Below, one piece after another: positions 2,267 to 58,921 of a DNA stretch of 64,000 bases; position 1 is the stretch's first letter, and every line of letters starts with the position of its first letter. Location of the stretch: assembly GCF_900683735.1 (NCBI RefSeq), contig NZ_LR215979.1, positions 3,286,001 through 3,350,000 on the forward strand, in the 5' to 3' direction. The stretch is from Fusobacterium ulcerans ATCC 49185 (lineage in GTDB: Bacteria > Fusobacteriota > Fusobacteriia > Fusobacteriales > Fusobacteriaceae). The notes under the pieces are model-generated. The model was not told the DNA's origin, ran no database searches, and was given only the letters and a program-made list of their open reading frames with translations. A program made the position numbers and the translations under genes.

Positions 2267-2286
2267 TTATTATTGGTTATATACAA

Positions 2287-16667: not shown

Positions 16668-16685
16668 TATTATTATTCATATACA
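16668..16685 (-). repeat. Dispersed iteron-like site (gyrA-gyrB gap)
   Basis: An exact minus-strand match to TGTATAT-N4-AATAATA (N4 = GAAT), identical in form to the repeats in the origin region 6-7 kb away. It lies in the gap between gyrB and gyrA. Confidence 0.7.
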
Positions 16686-18598: not shown

Positions 18599-18860
18599 TA
18601 CTATTACTACCTCCGCTTATTCTAAGATACTCATTTCCTCGGCTCATCAGAGTTGATAATGCATATGATGTAAAATATATTTTATCATCAGTTATCACTA
18701 CACTTTTCTCCTCTTCTGGAGCTAAATTTATTATTTTTTTAATTTTTATTTCACTATTATAAAACTCTTTATTATCATTACTTTTAAAATGTATATAATC
18801 AATAATACTTATAATATCCTTTGCTGAAATTATCAGTTCATTTTCTAAATAAATATACAT
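18591..18860 (-). CDS. remB: RemB/DUF370-like small regulator
   Basis: This 89-residue protein begins [21 protein letters not shown] and has [24 protein letters not shown] near the C-terminus, as in YaaB/RemB of Bacillus. RemA and RemB affect matrix genes there; the role in fusobacteria is unknown. It lies between the DciA-like gene and gyrB, the same position as yaaB in the Bacillus yaaA-recF-yaaB-gyrB cluster. An iteron-like site (18790-18807) is embedded in the coding sequence. Confidence 0.8.
18790..18807 (+). repeat. Dispersed iteron-like site inside remB
   Basis: An exact TGTATAT-N4-AATAATA match (N4 = AATC) on the strand opposite to the coding strand of remB. Confidence 0.65.
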
Positions 18861-18863
18861 ACT

Positions 18864-19406
18864 TCATCCTCTGCCTTTTTTATCTCGGCATATTTTGCAC
18901 ATATCTTCTGTGCCTTTGAAATATGCTCCGCATTCTGGACATTTTTTATATCCCGCTTCTAATAAACGCTGCTCCTTTTTTTCAGCAGATTTTTTCAGAT
19001 GCTCTATTTTTTGAGATATATCCATTTCATTAAAATCTATATTTAAATATTTATCCTCAGAAACTTTCTCTTCAGATAAATTATTATTATCCATATACAT
19101 ATCATCATATATCTCTTCTTCTTTTATTTTAGAGATACGAAATGACATATCGTTTATTATATCTGCATTTAATATTTCATTAACTTTTTCTATATATTTT
19201 TTCTTATTCATCTCCATAAAGTGAAGCACTGATGAGTTTTCCACAGCAGTATAAAGTACATTTTCTTTTATGTAAAGAACCTGACTTTTCTCAGAAAGTT
19301 TTCCTGCAATATTTTTCCATTGAGCTTTGAGGATACCCTCTTTTAATCTTCTGCTCTTTTCAATTGCCCTTTCTATCATTCTCCCTATGTTCTCTATCTC
19401 TATCAT
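18864..19406 (-). CDS. DUF721/DciA-like protein with zinc ribbon
   Basis: The N-terminal 100 residues match the DUF721 pattern (LKAQWKNIAGKLSEKSQVLYIKENVLYTAVENSSVLHFMEMNK). DUF721 includes DciA, the ancestral bacterial helicase loader that works with DnaB. The C-terminus has a zinc ribbon (CPECGAYFKGTEDMCKIC). The start at ATG 19406 is chosen because AAGGTGA precedes it by 8 bases; this overlaps recF by 47 bases. A longer start at 19430 is possible. Its position next to recF and an initiator gene fits a replication role, but that is inference. An iteron-like site lies within it. Confidence 0.7.
   Translation of the reverse strand: MIEIENIGRMIERAIEKSRRLKEGILKAQWKNIAGKLSEKSQVLYIKENVLYTAVENSSVLHFMEMNKKKYIEKVNEILNADIINDMSFRISKIKEEEIYDDMYMDNNNLSEEKVSEDKYLNIDFNEMDISQKIEHLKKSAEKKEQRLLEAGYKKCPECGAYFKGTEDMCKICRDKKGRG
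19082..19099 (-). repeat. Dispersed iteron-like site inside the DciA-like gene
   Basis: An exact minus-strand TGTATAT-N4-AATAATA match (N4 = GGAT). It encodes MYMDNNN in the protein, in a poorly conserved linker, so the DNA site could be tolerated or selected there. Confidence 0.7.
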
Positions 19407-20487
19407 AGCTAATTTCACCTTTTTCCACATAGAAATTTTTAGTGTCTATTCCAAGTCCTCCTGTTGAGCTAATAAAAACCTGTATATTTCTTTTTTCCAG
19501 ATAGTTCAGTATACTATCTTTTCTGTTAGAATCAAAATATGAAGATATATCATCAATTATAAGAATTGGACTCTCTTTTTTCTCTCTCAGTACCATATCT
19601 ATTTCTGAAAGCTTCAAAGAAAAAATAATTGATTTTTTTTCTCCTTGAGAAGCTGTTGATTTAGCTTCATAAGAGTTTAGAAAGAATAAAAAATCATCTT
19701 TTTGAGGTCCTGAAAGTGAAAAACCATATCTCAATTCCTGACCTAATTTTTCCTCTACCCTTTTTCTAAGTGCATCTTCTATTTCTTTCAGAGTCATCTT
19801 TTTCATATTTCCAAGATGGCATTGATATTGAAGACTCAGTTCTTTTTTATCATCAAAAAGTTTTCTATAATTTAGATTAAGAATGATAGATATTTTTTTT
19901 ACATATTCCATTCTTTTCTCTATAACTTTAGCTCCATATTTTACAAATTCATCTTGATATATAGCAAATTCAGGCTCTTTATGCTTTTTTTCTTTTAAAT
20001 ATTTATTTCTTATTTTCAATATCTTATTAAAGTTTTTCAGTTCTTGAAAATATTCATTGCTGGTTTGAGCTATCTCCCCATCAAAAAAATTCCTTCTGAC
20101 AGAAGGAGATCCTGTTATCAGTACTATGTCTTCAGGAATATATGTCACTACATTGAGCTTTCCATAAAATTCATCATACTGTACTCTCTTCCCATTGTAG
20201 CTATATTCTTTTTTATCTTCATTATTAAATTTTACAGTAAGGGTCTTTTCCCCTATATTATCTTTATAAACTATATAAACACCTGTTCGTTTATGTCCAT
20301 ACTTCATCATTTCATTGCTTTTACTGGTTCTGAAGCTCTTACCTGTAGAATTGAAATACAATGCTTCCAGGAGACTAGTCTTTCCTTGACCATTTTTTCC
20401 ATAAAAAAGATTAAGTTTAGGAAAAAATTTTACATTTCCATCTTGAAGATTTCTAAAATTTACATAATTTATCTCTAGTATTTCCAA
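19360..20487 (-). CDS. recF: RecF, DNA gap repair ATPase
   Basis: This SMC-like ABC ATPase loads RecA at single-strand gaps. It has about 375 residues. Walker A is FYGKNGQGKTSLLEALY (about 30-46), the signature region is SLSGPQKDDF and SQGEKKSIIFSLKLSE, and Walker B is PILIIDDISSYFD. The start at TTG 20487 is preferred because GAGGTGA lies 5 bases upstream; GTG 20496 is the alternative. It overlaps the DciA-like gene at its 3' end. The order yaaA-recF is that of typical dnaA-dnaN-yaaA-recF clusters, but dnaA and dnaN are absent here. Confidence 0.93.
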   Translation of the reverse strand: MEILEINYVNFRNLQDGNVKFFPKLNLFYGKNGQGKTSLLEALYFNSTGKSFRTSKSNEMMKYGHKRTGVYIVYKDNIGEKTLTVKFNNEDKKEYSYNGKRVQYDEFYGKLNVVTYIPEDIVLITGSPSVRRNFFDGEIAQTSNEYFQELKNFNKILKIRNKYLKEKKHKEPEFAIYQDEFVKYGAKVIEKRMEYVKKISIILNLNYRKLFDDKKELSLQYQCHLGNMKKMTLKEIEDALRKRVEEKLGQELRYGFSLSGPQKDDFLFFLNSYEAKSTASQGEKKSIIFSLKLSEIDMVLREKKESPILIIDDISSYFDSNRKDSILNYLEKRNIQVFISSTGGLGIDTKNFYVEKGEISYDRDREHRENDRKGN

Positions 20488-20520
20488 CCCTTTCACCTCA
20501 GGCCAATCAATATCTCATAA

Positions 20521-20727
20521 TTATTTTACTATGAAAACTCTTCCCTCAGCTTCAACTTTATCACCTGGGTAAAGTTTTTTACCTCTTCTTATCTCTAATT
20601 CTCCATTAACTTTTACATTTCCCTCAGTTATAAAAAATTTAGCATCTACTCCAGTATCACATATCCCAGTCCACTTTAAAAATTGATCCAGTTTAATAAA
20701 TTCAGTAGATATTTTTACTTCTTCCAT
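20521..20727 (-). CDS. yaaA: YaaA/RlbA S4-domain protein
   Basis: This 68-residue S4 RNA-binding protein has the usual form (FIKLDQFLKWTGICDTGVDAKFFITEGNVKVNGELEIRRGKKLYPGDKVE). The family is always found next to recF and is implicated in ribosome or RNA handling; its exact function is uncertain. It is the most upstream gene of the recF-gyrB-gyrA run, 25 bases or more from recF. The ribosome binding site is AAGGGGGAA before ATG 20727. Confidence 0.88.
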   Translation of the reverse strand: MEEVKISTEFIKLDQFLKWTGICDTGVDAKFFITEGNVKVNGELEIRRGKKLYPGDKVEAEGRVFIVK

Positions 20728-20823: not shown

Positions 20824-20841
20824 TGTATATGAATAATAATA
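20824..20841 (+). repeat. Iteron-like site downstream of the rep gene
   Basis: An exact TGTATAT-N4-AATAATA match (N4 = GAAT) in the gap between yaaA and the initiator gene, just beyond the rep terminator. Confidence 0.75.
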
Positions 20842-20912: not shown

Positions 20913-22703
20913 TTATTCATCTTTTATTACTCTTTCAATATATCTTTTTATAGTATTTAAGTATATATTCTTAGATTTTGATTTCATAGTAAGAAGAAAA
21001 TTAACATCTATTCCCTCTTCCTGTGAACATATTTTCAATGCTTTTTCCTCTATCTTTAATTTTTCAAATTCATCATAGTTATTATATTCAGCCATTAAAT
21101 CCTTTGGTATATCAGTATCATTTATTATATCTTTAATACTGCTTATAACAGGTTTTTTAACACTTCTTCTAGCTTGATTAATCTTTTTCTTACTCTTCAA
21201 TCCTTTTTCTTTTACTATGTTATTGAAAAGAGTAAGATTCTGTTTGTTACTACTGCTTTCATCAGCAGAAATATTTTTAAGTATCCCATTAATATATTGT
21301 ACAAGAGTTGTTTTTATATTTCCATTAAGATTTTTATACAGTATAGAAAGAACTTCTTTTGCTGTTGTTTCTCCCTCTTCTCTGCATATTTTCTTTATTT
21401 TATTGTCAGTTCTTCTGTCCCACGCCCTCTGTACATAGATGTTTCTTTTAGCTTTTTGCACCTTTTCCATTATATCTCCTGGAAACTCTATAGCTGGTTC
21501 TTTATGTTTAATCTCTGGTTTAGATATTTTTTCTTTTGAACCATATTCAACCACTTCAGCATCTTCTATGTCTAAATTATTTTTAGCTGCAATTGCTGTT
21601 GGTCTTTTTCTTCCCATATCCTTTGCACTTTTATTTTCAAGGAAAGAAGATACATGACATTCTCCATCTTTCTCTTTATTGAAAATGTAGTTAATATAGT
21701 AATTGTCCTCTTCTTTTATGTAGTCTGAATTATATTTAATAATATATCCCATCTCTACAAGTACATCAAAAGCTTTTTCTATTCTTTTCAATACTTGCTT
21801 AACTCTGCATAGGATATATTGTTTTATTTCACCATTTTTATTTACTCTTTCAGTGACCTGTTCTGTTTTCAAAGGGATTATTGCTGCAAGAGTTCTAAGA
21901 TTTATTCTTCCATCCATACTTTCATATCTTATTTTACTTATGTATTTATATATTCTTCCTGCAATAGGATCCTTTGTCAATATTTCAAGAAGTGATTTAG
22001 AATTGTATTTTATATATCTTTTATCTTTTATCTTCTGTCTTATATTTTTATTCAAAGTAACTCTATAATATATTTTTTTTCCTTTTTTAAGTTTTTGATA
22101 TGTTAGAAGTTTAAATTCCTCATCTTCAAATTTATATTTTCCAAGCTTTGTATGATTAGAAACGATAAATTGATACTCTGTATTTTTTAAATTTTTCAAA
22201 GCTTGTTCTACTTTTGAGTAGTAAGTTCTATTCATTTTATTTCCAAGGAAGCTTACTATAAAATCTGAAATTTCAAACTCTATATATTCATCTGAATCCT
22301 CTAGCTCTTTTTTTATCTCATACATTGAAATAAGATATGTATATATTTTTTCTTCAAATGTTGAAGGCTGGAAAACTTTGTCAGCATTATCTTTTGCTAC
22401 AAGAGTACAATACATTGTAACTCCCAGATCTTCAAATGAATATTGAAAATTTACCCTTTTATTTTGTTTTTGTGGAGTAAAGAAAGGAAATACAATCATT
22501 TCAACAGGAATATTAATAATATTCTCTTTAAGATTTAAGAAATTTCCTGTTTCTTTGATAACCACTTCTCTCACTTCTATATCAGGAACTGTATTAAGTT
22601 TTATTTCAACATTCCTTATATCTTCTACTAGTGATCCACTTTGTGATATCTTGAAACTATCTAAAATTTCAAAATTATTATCTGCAGAGTCATCTTTTTT
22701 CAT
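20913..22703 (-). CDS. Plasmid-type replication initiator protein
   Basis: This 596-residue protein resembles plasmid replication initiator A (RPA, winged-helix Rep class). The region FPFFTPQKQNKRVNFQYSF (about 72-90), the stretch PSTFEEKIYTYLISMY and the helix that begins YYSKVEQALKNLKNTEYQF are in the expected order for two winged-helix modules (about 60-340). The C-terminal 250 residues are charged and of unknown function. The start is ATG 22703 after GGGGAG. The gene occupies the place of dnaA-dnaN beside yaaA-recF. Upstream it is flanked by direct-repeat iterons, and its own promoter overlaps two of them. I infer that it initiates replication here. Plasmid integration into the origin region is the main alternative. 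Confidence 0.75.
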   Translation of the reverse strand: MKKDDSADNNFEILDSFKISQSGSLVEDIRNVEIKLNTVPDIEVREVVIKETGNFLNLKENIINIPVEMIVFPFFTPQKQNKRVNFQYSFEDLGVTMYCTLVAKDNADKVFQPSTFEEKIYTYLISMYEIKKELEDSDEYIEFEISDFIVSFLGNKMNRTYYSKVEQALKNLKNTEYQFIVSNHTKLGKYKFEDEEFKLLTYQKLKKGKKIYYRVTLNKNIRQKIKDKRYIKYNSKSLLEILTKDPIAGRIYKYISKIRYESMDGRINLRTLAAIIPLKTEQVTERVNKNGEIKQYILCRVKQVLKRIEKAFDVLVEMGYIIKYNSDYIKEEDNYYINYIFNKEKDGECHVSSFLENKSAKDMGRKRPTAIAAKNNLDIEDAEVVEYGSKEKISKPEIKHKEPAIEFPGDIMEKVQKAKRNIYVQRAWDRRTDNKIKKICREEGETTAKEVLSILYKNLNGNIKTTLVQYINGILKNISADESSSNKQNLTLFNNIVKEKGLKSKKKINQARRSVKKPVISSIKDIINDTDIPKDLMAEYNNYDEFEKLKIEEKALKICSQEEGIDVNFLLTMKSKSKNIYLNTIKRYIERVIKDE

Positions 22704-22773
22704 AAATTATTCTCCCCTCTAAGTCGTAAGTAAATGTATAAGGCATACTCCTAATAAAATGTATATAATGAAT

Positions 22774-22802
22774 AATATAACATTTTTTATGTATATCCAC
22801 AA
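22774..22802 (-). promoter_or_regulatory. Candidate rep promoter overlapped by iterons
   Basis: On the minus strand TTGTGG (22797-22802) and TATATT (22774-22779) are 17 bases apart. Both boxes overlap iterons (22760-22777 and 22790-22807), an arrangement typical of autoregulated initiators. The -35 box is weak. Confidence 0.4.
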
Positions 22803-22850
22803 TAATATTTTTTATATCATAAGTATATTAAATTTGTATAAATATAAGCT

Positions 22851-22930
22851 CTTGATTTTTAAGGATTTTTAACATATACTCTAAAAAAGAAGTGTTTTTC
22901 CAATTCTTTATAATCCCTTAAGAATCAAGG
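22851..22930. repeat. Imperfect inverted repeat in the origin
   Basis: CTTGATTTTTAAGGATT at 22851-22867 and AATCCCTTAAGAATCAAGG at 22912-22930 are near-perfect reverse complements, enclosing 44 bases. It may form a cruciform or be a site for a second protein. Confidence 0.55.
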
Positions 22931-23243
22931 TTTTGATCTTTTGTATATACTCAATAATAAACAACAGAATTTTATTTTAACATAAAATTCAAATAAAATA
23001 AAGATTAAAAATGTATATGGATAATAATATTTTTTTTAATTCATTGAAAATACTGGTTTACCTAATGTGTATATTGATAATAATATTTTTTGATATTTTT
23101 CTTTCTAGTTTTTTTGAGGAGTCTCAAGATTTTTATTTTTTCCAATCCTTGAATTTACTAAGATATATGATGTGTATATCAATAAAAATAAAATACATAT
23201 CTTTTTTGAATATTTCTTCAATGATATCAATGGTTTTTTGATA

Positions 23244-23263
23244 GACCAATTTTTATATTGGTC
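23244..23263. repeat. Short hairpin in the origin region
   Basis: GACCAAT and ATTGGTC are perfectly inverted around a 6-base loop. It may be a site for single-strand-dependent priming or a protein, but nothing else supports a role. Confidence 0.35.
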
Positions 23264-23484
23264 ATTACATTAAACAAAAAAACAATATAACAACTAATAT
23301 TTTTTTTGGTTGGTCTCTTTATTTTTTTTGAAAAGAAAATAATTTAGAAAATCTTATATAAAAATTTAACTGTAAATATCTAAAATAACTGATTTTCTTA
23401 TATATGTATATAAGCAATAATAAAAAAAATTATAGTTTTTTTGAAAAAATTCTGTAGAAATTTATTAAATTTTCTAATAATCAC

Positions 23485-23513
23485 TTGACAAAACAAGAAT
23501 TTTCCTTTAAAAT
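23485..23513 (+). promoter_or_regulatory. Promoter of rpmH
   Basis: TTGACA at 23485-23490, a 17-base spacer and TAAAAT at 23508-23513. rpmH starts 39 bases later behind GGAGGTG. Confidence 0.7.
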
Positions 23514-23551
23514 TACTATCTGAAATATAGAATTTTTTTGGAGGTGAAAAA

Positions 23552-23686
23552 ATGAAAAGAACATTCCAACCTAATCAAGCTAAAAGAAAGAAAGATCATG
23601 GGTTCAGAGCTAGAATGGCTACTAAAAATGGAAGAAAAGTTTTAAAAAGAAGAAGAGCTAGAGGAAGACAAGTATTATCAGCATAG
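23552..23686 (+). CDS. rpmH: Ribosomal protein L34
   Basis: The 44-residue L34 begins [20 protein letters not shown] and ends GRQVLSA, with the usual very basic middle. The ribosome binding site is GGAGGTG (23540-23546). As in many bacteria, rpmH-rnpA-yidD-yidC-jag-mnmE-mnmG forms a run next to the origin. A strong terminator follows immediately. Confidence 0.97.
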
Positions 23687-29101: not shown

Positions 29102-29119
29102 TATTATTATGTATATACA
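29102..29119 (-). repeat. Dispersed iteron-like site after mnmG
   Basis: An exact minus-strand TGTATAT-N4-AATAATA match (N4 = ACAT). The overlapping plus-strand sequence at 29110-29127 is one base off, so this site is nearly palindromic. Confidence 0.65.
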
Positions 29120-29161
29120 TATTAATAAAAAATTCTCTGTTACTTTAATGGAGGTGAAAAA

Positions 29162-32378: not shown

Positions 32379-32685
32379 AGTTGTTTCCCCCTTTATTATT
32401 TTAATATAATTTTAAAAAAAAAATTTCTTTTTAGATAAAAATGAATAAATATTTTTTATTGTTTGATTATATTATGTTTTTTTCCATTTGTAAAGGAAAA
32501 AAATAAATATATATGGTTAGTTTGGGAGATAGTGAAAATTGGTTAAAAGATAATTTATTATTGAACATATACATATGGAAAAGAGTATTTTTCAAAATAT
32601 TTAAACAGAAATATTTTTTCACTATGAAAAGTTGAAAATACAGAGTAAAATATATACATGAAAAAATAAATTTATGGAGTGAGTC
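32379..32685. other. Intergenic region between the SBP gene and mfd
   Basis: 307 bases of divergent promoter space. It holds the iteron-like site at 32556-32573 and the ribosome binding site of mfd (ATGGAGTGAG). No ORF or hairpin is convincing. Confidence 0.5.
32556..32573 (-). repeat. Dispersed iteron-like site upstream of mfd
   Basis: An exact minus-strand TGTATAT-N4-AATAATA match (N4 = GTTC). Confidence 0.65.
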
Positions 32686-35637
32686 ATGATAACAGAATAT
32701 AGAGGAAGGATACCTTTCCTGCTCAAAGATATAAAAGGAAACATAGTATATCTATGCTCATCCAACAAGAACATTGAGGATTATTACAATACCCTCAGTG
32801 ATTTTTATGATGGAAAAATTTTAAAAATTGAAAGCAGTTATGAAAATGAAGAGTTTGAAAAACTTAACTATGACTTGCTTAAACTTTTAAAATCCCCAAA
32901 TAAATTTGCCATACTCATATCTTTAGAAGCATTTCTCAGAGATTATGCATTGGAAGGAGACAAGCTTTCTTTTGTAAAGGGAAAGGAAATGAGCATAGGT
33001 AAAATACAGGAAGATCTTATAAAAAATAAATTTGATAAAGCATATATGATTGAAAAAAGAATGCAGTATAGCGTAAGAGGGGATATTTTGGATATCTTTT
33101 CAAGTGATGGAGATTATCCTGTAAGAGTTGAATTTTTTGGAGATGAGATAGAGAGAATAACATATTTTGATCTTGAAAGTCAGAAGAGTATAGAAACACT
33201 TGATAATATCAATGTGTATATAAACAATAATAAAGATGGAAAAATATCTTTTTTTGATTTGGTTAAAAAGAGTAAAATTAAAGGATTGAAGATATATTTT
33301 GAAAATAATGAATTGTTGAGATATAAATTAGAGGAAAATATACTCAGAGAGAGGGAAGAGGAAGAAAAGTTTCGAGGAAGATTTGAGGAACTGTTGGAAA
33401 CTGGTGAGGAAGTAGAAATAAAAAGATTCTCAGAAGAAGAAATAAAGAAATTTGAGGATTATGATTATATAAAAAAATTGAGCCAGAAAGAAAATATACT
33501 TTTGATGTCAGAAGAGGAAAAGAGATATAAGGAGATATTTGAAAACTATAATATTGAGATAGAGAGATATCCTCATTATGAAGGATATAGAGAAAAAGAC
33601 AGGCTTATACTCACTGACAGAGAACTAAAAGGAATCAAAGTAAAGAGAGAAGCAAGGGAAAAGGTAAATTTAAAATATAAAGATGTATCTCAAATCAGAG
33701 AAAATGACTTTATAATTCATGAAAATTATGGAGTAGGTATCTATCAAGGGATAGAAACTATGAATGGACAGGATTATTTAAAGATAAAGTATGCTGATGA
33801 AGATAAACTTTTTGTTCCTGTTGAAGGAATAAATAAAATTGAAAAATATGTATCTACTCCTGGAGTAATACCTGATATATACCAGTTAGGGAGAAGAGGA
33901 TTTAAAAGAAAAAGACAGAAGCTGGAAGAGGAAATGGTGGCTTTTGCTAAAGAAATCATTGAGATACAGGCAAAGAGAGCTTTTGAAAAGGGGTATGCTT
34001 TTTCTCATGATACAGTATGGCAGGAGGAATTTGAAGAAAGCTTTCCATATAAAGAAACAGCTTCTCAGTTAAAAGCTATAGAAGATGTAAAAAGAGATAT
34101 GGAATCAGATAGAATAATGGATAGAGTAGTCTGTGGAGATGTGGGATATGGTAAGACAGAGATAGCTTTGAGAGCAGCTTTTAAAGCTTCTATAGATGGA
34201 AAACAGGTAGTTGTAATGGTTCCTACAACAGTGCTTGCACAACAGCATTATGAGAGATTTACAGAAAGATTTAAAAACTATCCTGTAACTATTGAAATAT
34301 TGAGCAGATTAAAAAGTGAAAAAGAGCAGAAAGAGGTACTTAAAAAAATATCAGCAGGGACTATTGATATAGTCATAGGGACTCACAGAATACTTTCATC
34401 AGATGTAAAATTTAAAGATTTAGGTCTTGTAGTAATAGATGAGGAACAAAAATTTGGTGTGAAAGCTAAAGAACAGCTGAAAAAACTGAAAAATAAAATA
34501 GATATGATAACCCTTACTGCTACACCTATTCCAAGAACATTGAATCTTTCACTTTTGGGAATAAGAGATCTTTCTGTAATAGATACTCCTCCAGAAGGAA
34601 GAAAGCCTATCGAAACAATGTTTATAGATAAAGATGATAAAAAACTAAAAGAGATAATTATGAGTGAGATAGCCAGAGAAGGTCAGGTTTTCTACATATT
34701 CAATTCTGTAAAAAATATAGAAAGTAAAACCAATGAACTTAGAAAGCTTCTTCCAAATTATCTGAAATTGGACTATATACATGGGCAGATGCTTCCAAAG
34801 GAAATAAAAAATAAGATAAAAGATTTTGAAAATGGAGATATAGATATGCTTGTTTCTACTACTATAATTGAAAATGGTATAGATATAGAAAATGCAAATA
34901 CTATGATAATAGATGGAGTGGAAAAACTGGGATTATCTCAAATATACCAGCTGAGAGGACGTATAGGAAGAGGAAGAAGAAAGGGATACTGTTATCTTCT
35001 CACTAAGGAGCATCAGACTAAGAAAGCTAAGGAAAGAGAGGAATCCATCAAAAATCTTGGAGATTCAGGAGGAGGATTCCAGCTTTCTCTTGAAGATATG
35101 AGAATAAGAGGAGCAGGAGAGATACTTGGAGATAAGCAGCATGGAGCTCTTGAGACTTTTGGATATAATTTGTATATAAAAATGCTGAATGAAGAGATAC
35201 AGCGTATCAAAGGAAATGCTCCAGAAGAAGAGATGGAAATGGAGATAAAAATAGATATGCCAGCATTTATTCCCGATGACTATATAGAAAAAGATGAAAA
35301 AATAGTAATCTATAGAAGAGCAGCTGAACTAAAAACTCAGGAAGAATTAAAAGAACTTGAGTCTGAAGTAAGAGATAGATTTGGAAATCCTCCAAGAGAG
35401 GTAGTAAATCTTTTCTACTATATAGGAGTTAAGATTAAAGCTAGAGAACTTGGAATTTCTGTAATCAGACAGGAAAAAAACGGATTCTTTGTAAGATTTC
35501 TAAATGAAAAAGTAAATATAGAAAAAATATCTCAAATGATGACAATGGGAAATCTGAAATATCTCAATAGAGAGGAAGGGGTATTCTACAGAGGGAATAT
35601 CAACAGATTTTTTAATGAGTATGAGGGAGTGATGTAG
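32686..35637 (+). CDS. mfd: Transcription-repair coupling factor Mfd
   Basis: Mfd removes stalled RNA polymerase and recruits UvrA. At 983 residues it is shorter than E. coli Mfd (1148). It has the UvrB-like N-terminal region (about 1-330), the RNAP-interacting domain (INENDFIIHENYGVGIYQGIETM region, about 340-410), the RecG-like helicase with Walker A CGDVGYGKTE and DEEQKFG, TATPIPRTLNLSLLG, the GRIGRGRRKGYCYL motif, and the C-terminal TRCF domain. An iteron-like site is embedded at 33215-33232. The gene order mfd-mazG-rqcP matches Bacillus. Confidence 0.95.
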   Translation: MITEYRGRIPFLLKDIKGNIVYLCSSNKNIEDYYNTLSDFYDGKILKIESSYENEEFEKLNYDLLKLLKSPNKFAILISLEAFLRDYALEGDKLSFVKGKEMSIGKIQEDLIKNKFDKAYMIEKRMQYSVRGDILDIFSSDGDYPVRVEFFGDEIERITYFDLESQKSIETLDNINVYINNNKDGKISFFDLVKKSKIKGLKIYFENNELLRYKLEENILREREEEEKFRGRFEELLETGEEVEIKRFSEEEIKKFEDYDYIKKLSQKENILLMSEEEKRYKEIFENYNIEIERYPHYEGYREKDRLILTDRELKGIKVKREAREKVNLKYKDVSQIRENDFIIHENYGVGIYQGIETMNGQDYLKIKYADEDKLFVPVEGINKIEKYVSTPGVIPDIYQLGRRGFKRKRQKLEEEMVAFAKEIIEIQAKRAFEKGYAFSHDTVWQEEFEESFPYKETASQLKAIEDVKRDMESDRIMDRVVCGDVGYGKTEIALRAAFKASIDGKQVVVMVPTTVLAQQHYERFTERFKNYPVTIEILSRLKSEKEQKEVLKKISAGTIDIVIGTHRILSSDVKFKDLGLVVIDEEQKFGVKAKEQLKKLKNKIDMITLTATPIPRTLNLSLLGIRDLSVIDTPPEGRKPIETMFIDKDDKKLKEIIMSEIAREGQVFYIFNSVKNIESKTNELRKLLPNYLKLDYIHGQMLPKEIKNKIKDFENGDIDMLVSTTIIENGIDIENANTMIIDGVEKLGLSQIYQLRGRIGRGRRKGYCYLLTKEHQTKKAKEREESIKNLGDSGGGFQLSLEDMRIRGAGEILGDKQHGALETFGYNLYIKMLNEEIQRIKGNAPEEEMEMEIKIDMPAFIPDDYIEKDEKIVIYRRAAELKTQEELKELESEVRDRFGNPPREVVNLFYYIGVKIKARELGISVIRQEKNGFFVRFLNEKVNIEKISQMMTMGNLKYLNREEGVFYRGNINRFFNEYEGVM
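33215..33232 (+). repeat. Dispersed iteron-like site inside mfd
   Basis: An exact TGTATAT-N4-AATAATA match (N4 = AAAC) in the coding strand, in the poorly conserved N-terminal part of Mfd (protein VYINNNKD). Confidence 0.65.
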
Positions 35638-36748: not shown

Positions 36749-37608
36749 TGAAATTTTCTTTGAATTCCAACGGAAAGATAAATATAGGTTTAAATGTGAC
36801 AGGCAGGCGTGAAGACGGCTATCATCTTCTAGATATGGTAATGGTGCCTATCAGCTTAAGTGATACTATGACTGGAGAAATAGAAGATATAAGTGGAACA
36901 TTAACTATTAAAACTAACAAGAAGTCTATACCAACAGGAAAAGAAAATATCTTGTATAAGATATATGACAGATTTTATAATGAAAGTAATCTGGAAAGAA
37001 GAAAAGTATATGTGTATCTTAAAAAAAGAATACCACATCAGGCTGGGCTTGGGGGAGGAAGTTCCAATGGAGCATTCCTGCTTAAACTGCTGAATGATTT
37101 TCATGGAAAGTATTTCTCTATGGAAAAAATGATAGATATAGGAAAGAGTGTAGGAGCAGATATTCCATTCTTTCTGATAAATAAATCTGCCAGAGTTAGA
37201 GGTATAGGAGAAAGTATTGAAATAATAGAAAACAATCTGGACAGTGCGTTGATAGTTATAAAACCAGATTTTGGAGTTTCTACAGGAAAAGCATATAAAA
37301 ATATGTATATGCTCAATAATAAAAAAGATGCTGATATAGATAGAATAGTTCTGGGACTAAAGGAAAACAGCCTGTCTACAGTGGAAAATAATATAGAAAA
37401 TCATTTAGAACAGGGTCTTTTACTTGAAGATAAAAACATAATAGATTTCAGAAAAAGATTAGCAGCTTTAAGTAATATGAAATTCTTTATGTCAGGAAGT
37501 GGAAGTGCATATTATACTTTCGCTGACAAAAATGAGAAAGAAAATATATATAAAATATTAAAAGAGCATTTTAAAAACTGTGAAGTACATCTTTGCAGTT
37601 CTTTATAG
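36748..37608 (+). CDS. ispE: IspE, CDP-ME kinase
   Basis: The 286-residue GHMP kinase phosphorylates 4-diphosphocytidyl-2-C-methyl-erythritol in the MEP isoprenoid pathway. The N-terminus has KINIGLNVTGRREDGYHLLDMVM, the ATP loop is PHQAGLGGGSSNGAFLL (near 95), and the C-terminal GSGSAYYTF is present. It starts at GTG 36748 after GAGGAGGAT. An iteron-like site lies in the coding sequence (37304-37321). Confidence 0.93.
   Translation: MKFSLNSNGKINIGLNVTGRREDGYHLLDMVMVPISLSDTMTGEIEDISGTLTIKTNKKSIPTGKENILYKIYDRFYNESNLERRKVYVYLKKRIPHQAGLGGGSSNGAFLLKLLNDFHGKYFSMEKMIDIGKSVGADIPFFLINKSARVRGIGESIEIIENNLDSALIVIKPDFGVSTGKAYKNMYMLNNKKDADIDRIVLGLKENSLSTVENNIENHLEQGLLLEDKNIIDFRKRLAALSNMKFFMSGSGSAYYTFADKNEKENIYKILKEHFKNCEVHLCSSL
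37304..37321 (+). repeat. Dispersed iteron-like site inside ispE
   Basis: An exact TGTATAT-N4-AATAATA match (N4 = GCTC), coding for MYMLNNK. The same GCTC spacer recurs at 46786 and 58904. Confidence 0.65.
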
Positions 37609-46785: not shown

Positions 46786-46803
46786 TGTATATGCTCAATA
46801 ATA
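46786..46803 (+). repeat. Dispersed iteron-like site between HAD and LUD genes
   Basis: An exact TGTATAT-N4-AATAATA match (N4 = GCTC). It creates a misleading ATG at 46785 in frame with the next gene. Confidence 0.65.
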
Positions 46804-58903: not shown

Positions 58904-58921
58904 TATTATTGAGCATATACA
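58904..58921 (-). repeat. Dispersed iteron-like site after the lipase-like gene
   Basis: An exact minus-strand TGTATAT-N4-AATAATA match (N4 = GCTC), the most distant from the origin in this window. Confidence 0.65.

Follow-up and report, generated by a model that had tools for sequence, protein, structure and literature searches.

In nearly all bacteria, dnaA is the gene that sets off chromosome copying. The described systems closest to the locus considered here are the iteron plasmid initiators (RPA, PF10134; TrfA; RepE of mini-F; and pi of R6K), which have two winged-helix domains and are encoded beside direct-repeat iterons, each iteron being a bipartite site with its halves one helical turn apart; proteins of the RepE class use two winged helices to touch an iteron. 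Vibrio chromosome 2 likewise has a plasmid-derived initiator on a chromosome-size replicon, RctB, which serves this second chromosome alongside a DnaA-run first one. Here we describe a gene resembling these, rep, and the iterons upstream of it, in a 64,000-nucleotide stretch of the chromosome of Fusobacterium ulcerans ATCC 49185 (the window, corresponding to positions 3286001-3350000 of the 3,839,419-bp chromosome, which is a single contig, NZ_LR215979.1; feature coordinates are those of the window). Unlike the known iteron plasmid initiators, this Rep is found at the predicted origin of the main chromosome, in the place of dnaA, its iterons stand far apart and occur elsewhere around the chromosome as well, and the protein has an extra helical C-terminal region without a known fold. 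Unlike the RctB system, it belongs to a genome that has no DnaA and is encoded on the main chromosome, so that a chromid or secondary chromosome is not involved. On comparative evidence alone, we consider it very probable that the main chromosome has its only origin here, and that the initiator firing it is of plasmid type and displaced DnaA in place in an ancestor of the Fusobacteriaceae.

Free-living bacteria without dnaA are also found among cyanobacteria, for which the accessible part of a 2020 study (PMC7198777) gives multiple origins in the species tested, describes no replacement initiator, and treats dnaA-less free-living bacteria as unreported outside that group; the Fusobacteriaceae, unlike these cyanobacteria, have a single skew-defined origin and a dedicated Rep. 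A 2026 survey still takes DnaA dependence as a hallmark of chromosomes (PMC13342612). In the open literature we found no report on essentiality in Fusobacterium and none of dnaA being absent there; earlier remarks on the missing gene in older papers are possible.

We compared the locus across Fusobacteria and found that, in the sister families, dnaA holds the slot that rep occupies in the window: the order there is gyrA-gyrB-remB-dciA-recF-yaaA-dnaA, followed across the divide by rpmH-rnpA-yidD-yidC-jag-mnmE-mnmG (for example, at loci L140 and L143). Within the family, both genes were retrieved from 42 loci, in every one of which rep and rpmH are divergent, and rep is often found beside yaaA-recF-dciA-gyrB; relatives of the window genome in the named collection belong to Fusobacterium, Cetobacterium, Propionigenium, Ilyobacter and Psychrilyobacter. 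A Rep homologue is present in 59 of the 61 family genomes, a few of them having fragments or the divergent plasmid type only, which disposes of the concern that the gene might mark an integrated plasmid in a single strain. In the window genome itself, rep lies at the conserved origin locus of the 3.84-Mb single-contig chromosome and is not plasmid-borne.

The initial annotation, made from the window alone, had proposed that this initiator replaces or assists DnaA. A search of the complete genome revealed no dnaA elsewhere and no match to PF08299 (DnaA domain IV), which was also not found in any of the 61 Fusobacteriaceae genomes (14 genera) and is present in 36 of the 37 genomes from the phylum's remaining families, all but one that is 82% complete. 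Likewise, the full-length DnaA model TIGR00362 had no match over its cut-off in the 61 family genomes. The 42 rep-rpmH regions together contain seven DnaA-box-like sites (up to one mismatch) versus 9.5 expected, none of them exact, while in six of seven sister intergenic regions such sites exceed chance (4-18 versus 0.2-1.1 by shuffling, with 14-18 in three of the loci), the seventh having none. Thus, of the features of a DnaA-oriC system, neither domain IV nor a DnaA-box cluster at the origin is found at the window locus, and replacement fits better than assistance, the biochemical function of Rep being one that we infer. It could be argued that Rep is a mere origin-bound regulator or helper, and that firing is due to an unrecognised initiator, such as a DnaC-like AAA+ protein or a DnaA diverged beyond recognition, as there are weak matches to DnaA models in 31 of the 61 genomes and several DnaC-like AAA+ proteins in the window genome. 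However, these matches are far below the cut-off, nearly all cover the AAA+ core only, and none extends to domain IV; they are patchy in the family, whereas rep is near-universal; the two DnaA/PF00308 matches inspected in the window genome are DnaC-like loaders following phage-type replication genes; and the origin is devoid of a DnaA-box cluster. We regard such a hidden initiator as very unlikely. In their own right, the several DnaC-like AAA+ loaders encoded outside the window, at least two of them after phage-type replication genes, suggest that this genome harbors several prophages.

The rep gene (20913-22703, minus strand) is an open reading frame for 596 amino acids at the place where an RPA-like plasmid-type initiator had been annotated, and its match to Pfam RPA (PF10134) is weak, with an E value of 2e-5 and a score slightly under the cut-off; RPA was also matched in 19 of 28 Rep relatives (best E 7e-9), and TrfA in two. 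Its predicted architecture consists of two winged-helix domains (residues ~61-345) followed by a helical region (~405-596) which is conserved among relatives. The AlphaFold2 model, built using the 28 relatives, shows the two winged-helix domains at moderate confidence, and Foldseek searches with it retrieved RctB (E 1.6e-5) and RepE (E 1.1e-4). For residues 60-348 of this low-confidence model, VIA Z values were 11.5 for RctB, 9.6 for RepE and 7.9 for pi, the best solved match being domains 2-3 of RctB (151 residues, 3.6 Å). Rep is accordingly predicted by the model to adopt the tandem winged-helix fold of iteron-type plasmid initiators. A phage search with Rep gave no match. A DnaD-like C-terminal domain was considered but is not proposed, as DnaB_2 was matched in only one of the 28 members (E 0.065) and fold searches returned nothing solid.

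Upstream of rep, six exact copies and one near-exact copy of TGTATAT-N4-AATAATA were found in one direction, just as originally described, and the two half-sites can be read from the sequence as 11 bp apart center to center, which suits the two-winged-helix contact of RepE-class proteins. A motif search for TGTATATNNNNAATAATA places them all on the plus strand, at 22760-22777 (iteron 1, TGTATATAATGAATAATA), 22790-22807 (iteron 2, TGTATATCCACAATAATA), 22942-22959 (iteron 3), 23012-23029 (iteron 4), 23068-23085 (iteron 5), 23173-23190 (iteron 6, with a single mismatch that is identical in the related genomes G026 and G027) and 23405-23422 (iteron 7). Iterons 1 and 2 sit just upstream of rep, and from their position may possibly serve as its autoregulatory operator. 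The whole genome contains 29 exact copies versus one for the reversed control pattern, so that the cluster is not a chance occurrence; in sister genomes with DnaA, the motif occurs at 0-3 scattered sites. Iterons recur upstream of rep across the family, with direct copies at nearly all of the 42 loci and nearly all of them pointing one way, and, across nine close relatives, the fixed iteron positions are 87% conserved, compared with 64% for the N4 spacer and 62% for the remaining sequence, indicating that the sites are under selection. Spacings of 80-120 bp between iterons fall only into narrow bins (83-84, 92-95, 101-106 and 115-118 bp) about one helical turn apart, bins which are not independent because the species are related; a strict 10.5-bp phase test across all iteron spacings gave no decisive signal. 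The rep-rpmH region of Fusobacterium gastrosuis (L059) contains a duplication of the iteron array, its period being ~681 bp, and that of L052 is an origin region of 2.1 kb in which iteron-like sites number at least 11 forward and five reverse.

The array lies in the AT-rich, 0.85-kb rep-rpmH intergenic region (22704-23551), which is the predicted chromosomal replication origin; rpmH (23552-23686, plus strand), identified from the open reading frame list and the conserved gene order, is the first gene on the opposite arm. Both gene direction and GC skew change here, in agreement with the strand switch noted before. The check by cumulative GC skew which had been called for puts the minimum within the window at 22990, among the iterons, and the cumulative purine minimum is at 23329, also within the array; at seven further rep loci, the skew minimum is likewise between rep and rpmH. 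On a coarse genome-wide scale (20 sampled 10-kb stretches), GC skew is negative in all left-arm stretches but one and positive in most of those from the right arm, and the arm-wide change of sign near 1.3 Mb would place the terminus about opposite the rep locus. These data bear on the idea that, following the loss of DnaA, initiation proceeds without any dedicated initiator (R-loop or recombination-driven) and rep is a relic. Some DnaA-less free-living cyanobacteria, using multiple or DnaA-independent origins (PMC7198777), offer a precedent, but a single skew minimum located precisely at the iteron array, and the strong conservation of both Rep and iterons while the background drifts, make a relic rep even less likely than a hidden initiator.

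In the Rep tree, the 47 chromosomal Reps cluster as a single clan (support 100/99) that excludes 14 plasmid-type Reps, although long branches leave the deeper order unsure. Pairwise identities of Rep and MnmE are correlated (Spearman 0.78; 171 non-independent pairs), as expected under vertical descent. The nearest Rep relative outside the family, and the only one there, is encoded by pHIC, a 298-kb plasmid in Haliovirga abyssi, where it is followed by parA-parB; the chromosome of this species retains dnaA. The pHIC Rep and the divergent Reps on Fusobacteriaceae replicons or contigs of 0.87-1.15 Mb (L069, L070, L071, L072 and L073) are homologous proteins at 31-43% identity, and the main chromosomes of their hosts use dnaA or the chromosomal rep. 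Upstream of the divergent Reps examined, repeats, where found, are unrelated to the chromosomal iteron. More distant Reps, with repeats of another kind, are also encoded on large second replicons of Ilyobacter and others. The simplest account of this distribution would be that the ancestor of the Fusobacteriaceae captured a plasmid initiator once, at its origin, and then lost dnaA. A recent integration of a plasmid or megaplasmid that left rep at the old origin by chance, an idea prompted by plasmid-borne Rep relatives and by the rep-parA-parB order of pHIC, is the least likely alternative of all, as the position is constant across the genera of the family with a vertical signal, tblastn finds no plasmid parA/parB homologue in the window, and dnaA is lost in all family genomes. 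Plasmid integration, a relic gene and a hidden DnaA were each tested and dismissed. Two further rep-bearing sequences deserve mention: a 2.1-Mb replicon of Fusobacterium vincentii (L133, NZ_CP084075.1), deposited as "plasmid pSB055A", is at this size probably the chromosome, and G009 (contig C6, 11921-18029) has, head to head with an intact rep, a second copy that is riddled with stops and accompanied by iterons of its own, which may represent a duplicated origin or an assembly artefact.

Several observations weigh against a captured Rep as the chromosomal initiator. No rep was found in two of the genomes, both drafts, with completeness of 93% and 70%. The RPA score of the window Rep, 24.5 bits, falls slightly below the Pfam cut-off of 27; overall confidence of the fold model is low (pLDDT 63.5, pTM 0.37); and fold and family searches with the C-terminal region matched no known fold or family. 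At 30-230 bp, the iterons are spaced more widely than those of classical plasmid arrays. Finally, a Fusobacterium vincentii assembly is described as rotated to dnaA (PMC11209733), in conflict with the DnaA absence found here; this description may be a matter of assembler wording.

What is new here, and was absent from the initial annotation, is that low-copy iterons also lie dispersed in the region about the origin, at positions conserved between species. In addition to the origin array, the window contains 11 exact iterons on both strands, located by motif search: between rep and yaaA (20824-20841, plus; at an equal offset in G026 and G027), within dciA (19082-19099, minus), within remB (18790-18807, plus), between gyrB and gyrA (16668-16685, minus), and at 2268-2285 (minus), 32556-32573 (minus), 33215-33232 (plus), 37304-37321 (plus), 46786-46803 (plus) and 58904-58921 (minus), as well as in an overlapping inverted pair directly after mnmG (29102-29127; exact on the minus strand, one mismatch on the plus strand). 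This pair is retained in G027, where both copies are exact. Genome-wide, 23 exact iterons lie outside the origin array; 11 of these are no more than 50 kb from the origin, versus 0.6 expected (p 4e-12), and the same clustering is seen in G026 (p 6e-17) and G027 (p 2e-13). Offsets common to the three genomes are about -20.8, -6.4, -4.3, -4.0, -2.3, +6.0 and +9 to +14 kb, and are only partly informative because the genomes are closely related; more distant genera have fewer extra iterons, some of them still near the origin. Dispersed iterons may possibly titrate or pair Rep or mark the origin. More broadly, a family of free-living bacteria could have lost DnaA, come to run its sole chromosome on a captured plasmid initiator, and made the iteron into a new chromosome-wide control layer, with low-copy, origin-centered sites titrating, pairing or organising the Rep-bound origin, a proposal we put forward tentatively and at somewhat short of even probability.

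The flanking genes are those named earlier, with S4/YaaA, RecF, DciA and RemB supported by Pfam/NCBIfam and the other neighbors named by sequence and conserved order across loci. They include the yaaA-like S4 gene (20521-20727, minus strand; PF13275), which comes directly after dnaA in sister families, and recF (19360-20496, minus strand), a member of the ancestral dnaA-yaaA-recF-dciA-remB-gyrBA block by domain match and gene order in sister loci. The candidate helicase loader dciA (18864-19430, minus strand; PF05258, 34.5 bits, cut-off 24) codes for the ancestral operator of the replicative helicase (PMC5109545). As DciA is retained in 57 of the 61 family genomes, Rep likely reaches the helicase via DciA and DnaB. 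In the mechanism we propose, each Rep monomer would bind one 18-bp iteron, its two winged helices entering one major groove and the next along the same DNA face, and same-direction iterons, near-whole helical turns apart, would line up Reps. The aligned Reps could then open the adjoining AT-rich region and hand over the opened strand to DnaB, the helicase, a step in which DciA, kept beside the origin, would probably help. The iterons near the rep start codon would probably repress rep. For the low-copy iterons about the origin, a role in titrating or pairing Rep, or in marking the region itself, is probable.

Since dnaA is absent from the Fusobacteriaceae, pipelines that find chromosomes by dnaA fail in this family, and Rep is a family-specific candidate essential target. 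The locus would offer a natural and testable case of "integrative suppression", in which a plasmid-type initiator with iteron control fires once per cycle on a multi-megabase chromosome. Overall, our findings suggest that chromosome copying in the Fusobacteriaceae relies on a plasmid system which was captured, and that a family including human-associated Fusobacterium appears to have exchanged DnaA for a plasmid-type initiator, in place, once.
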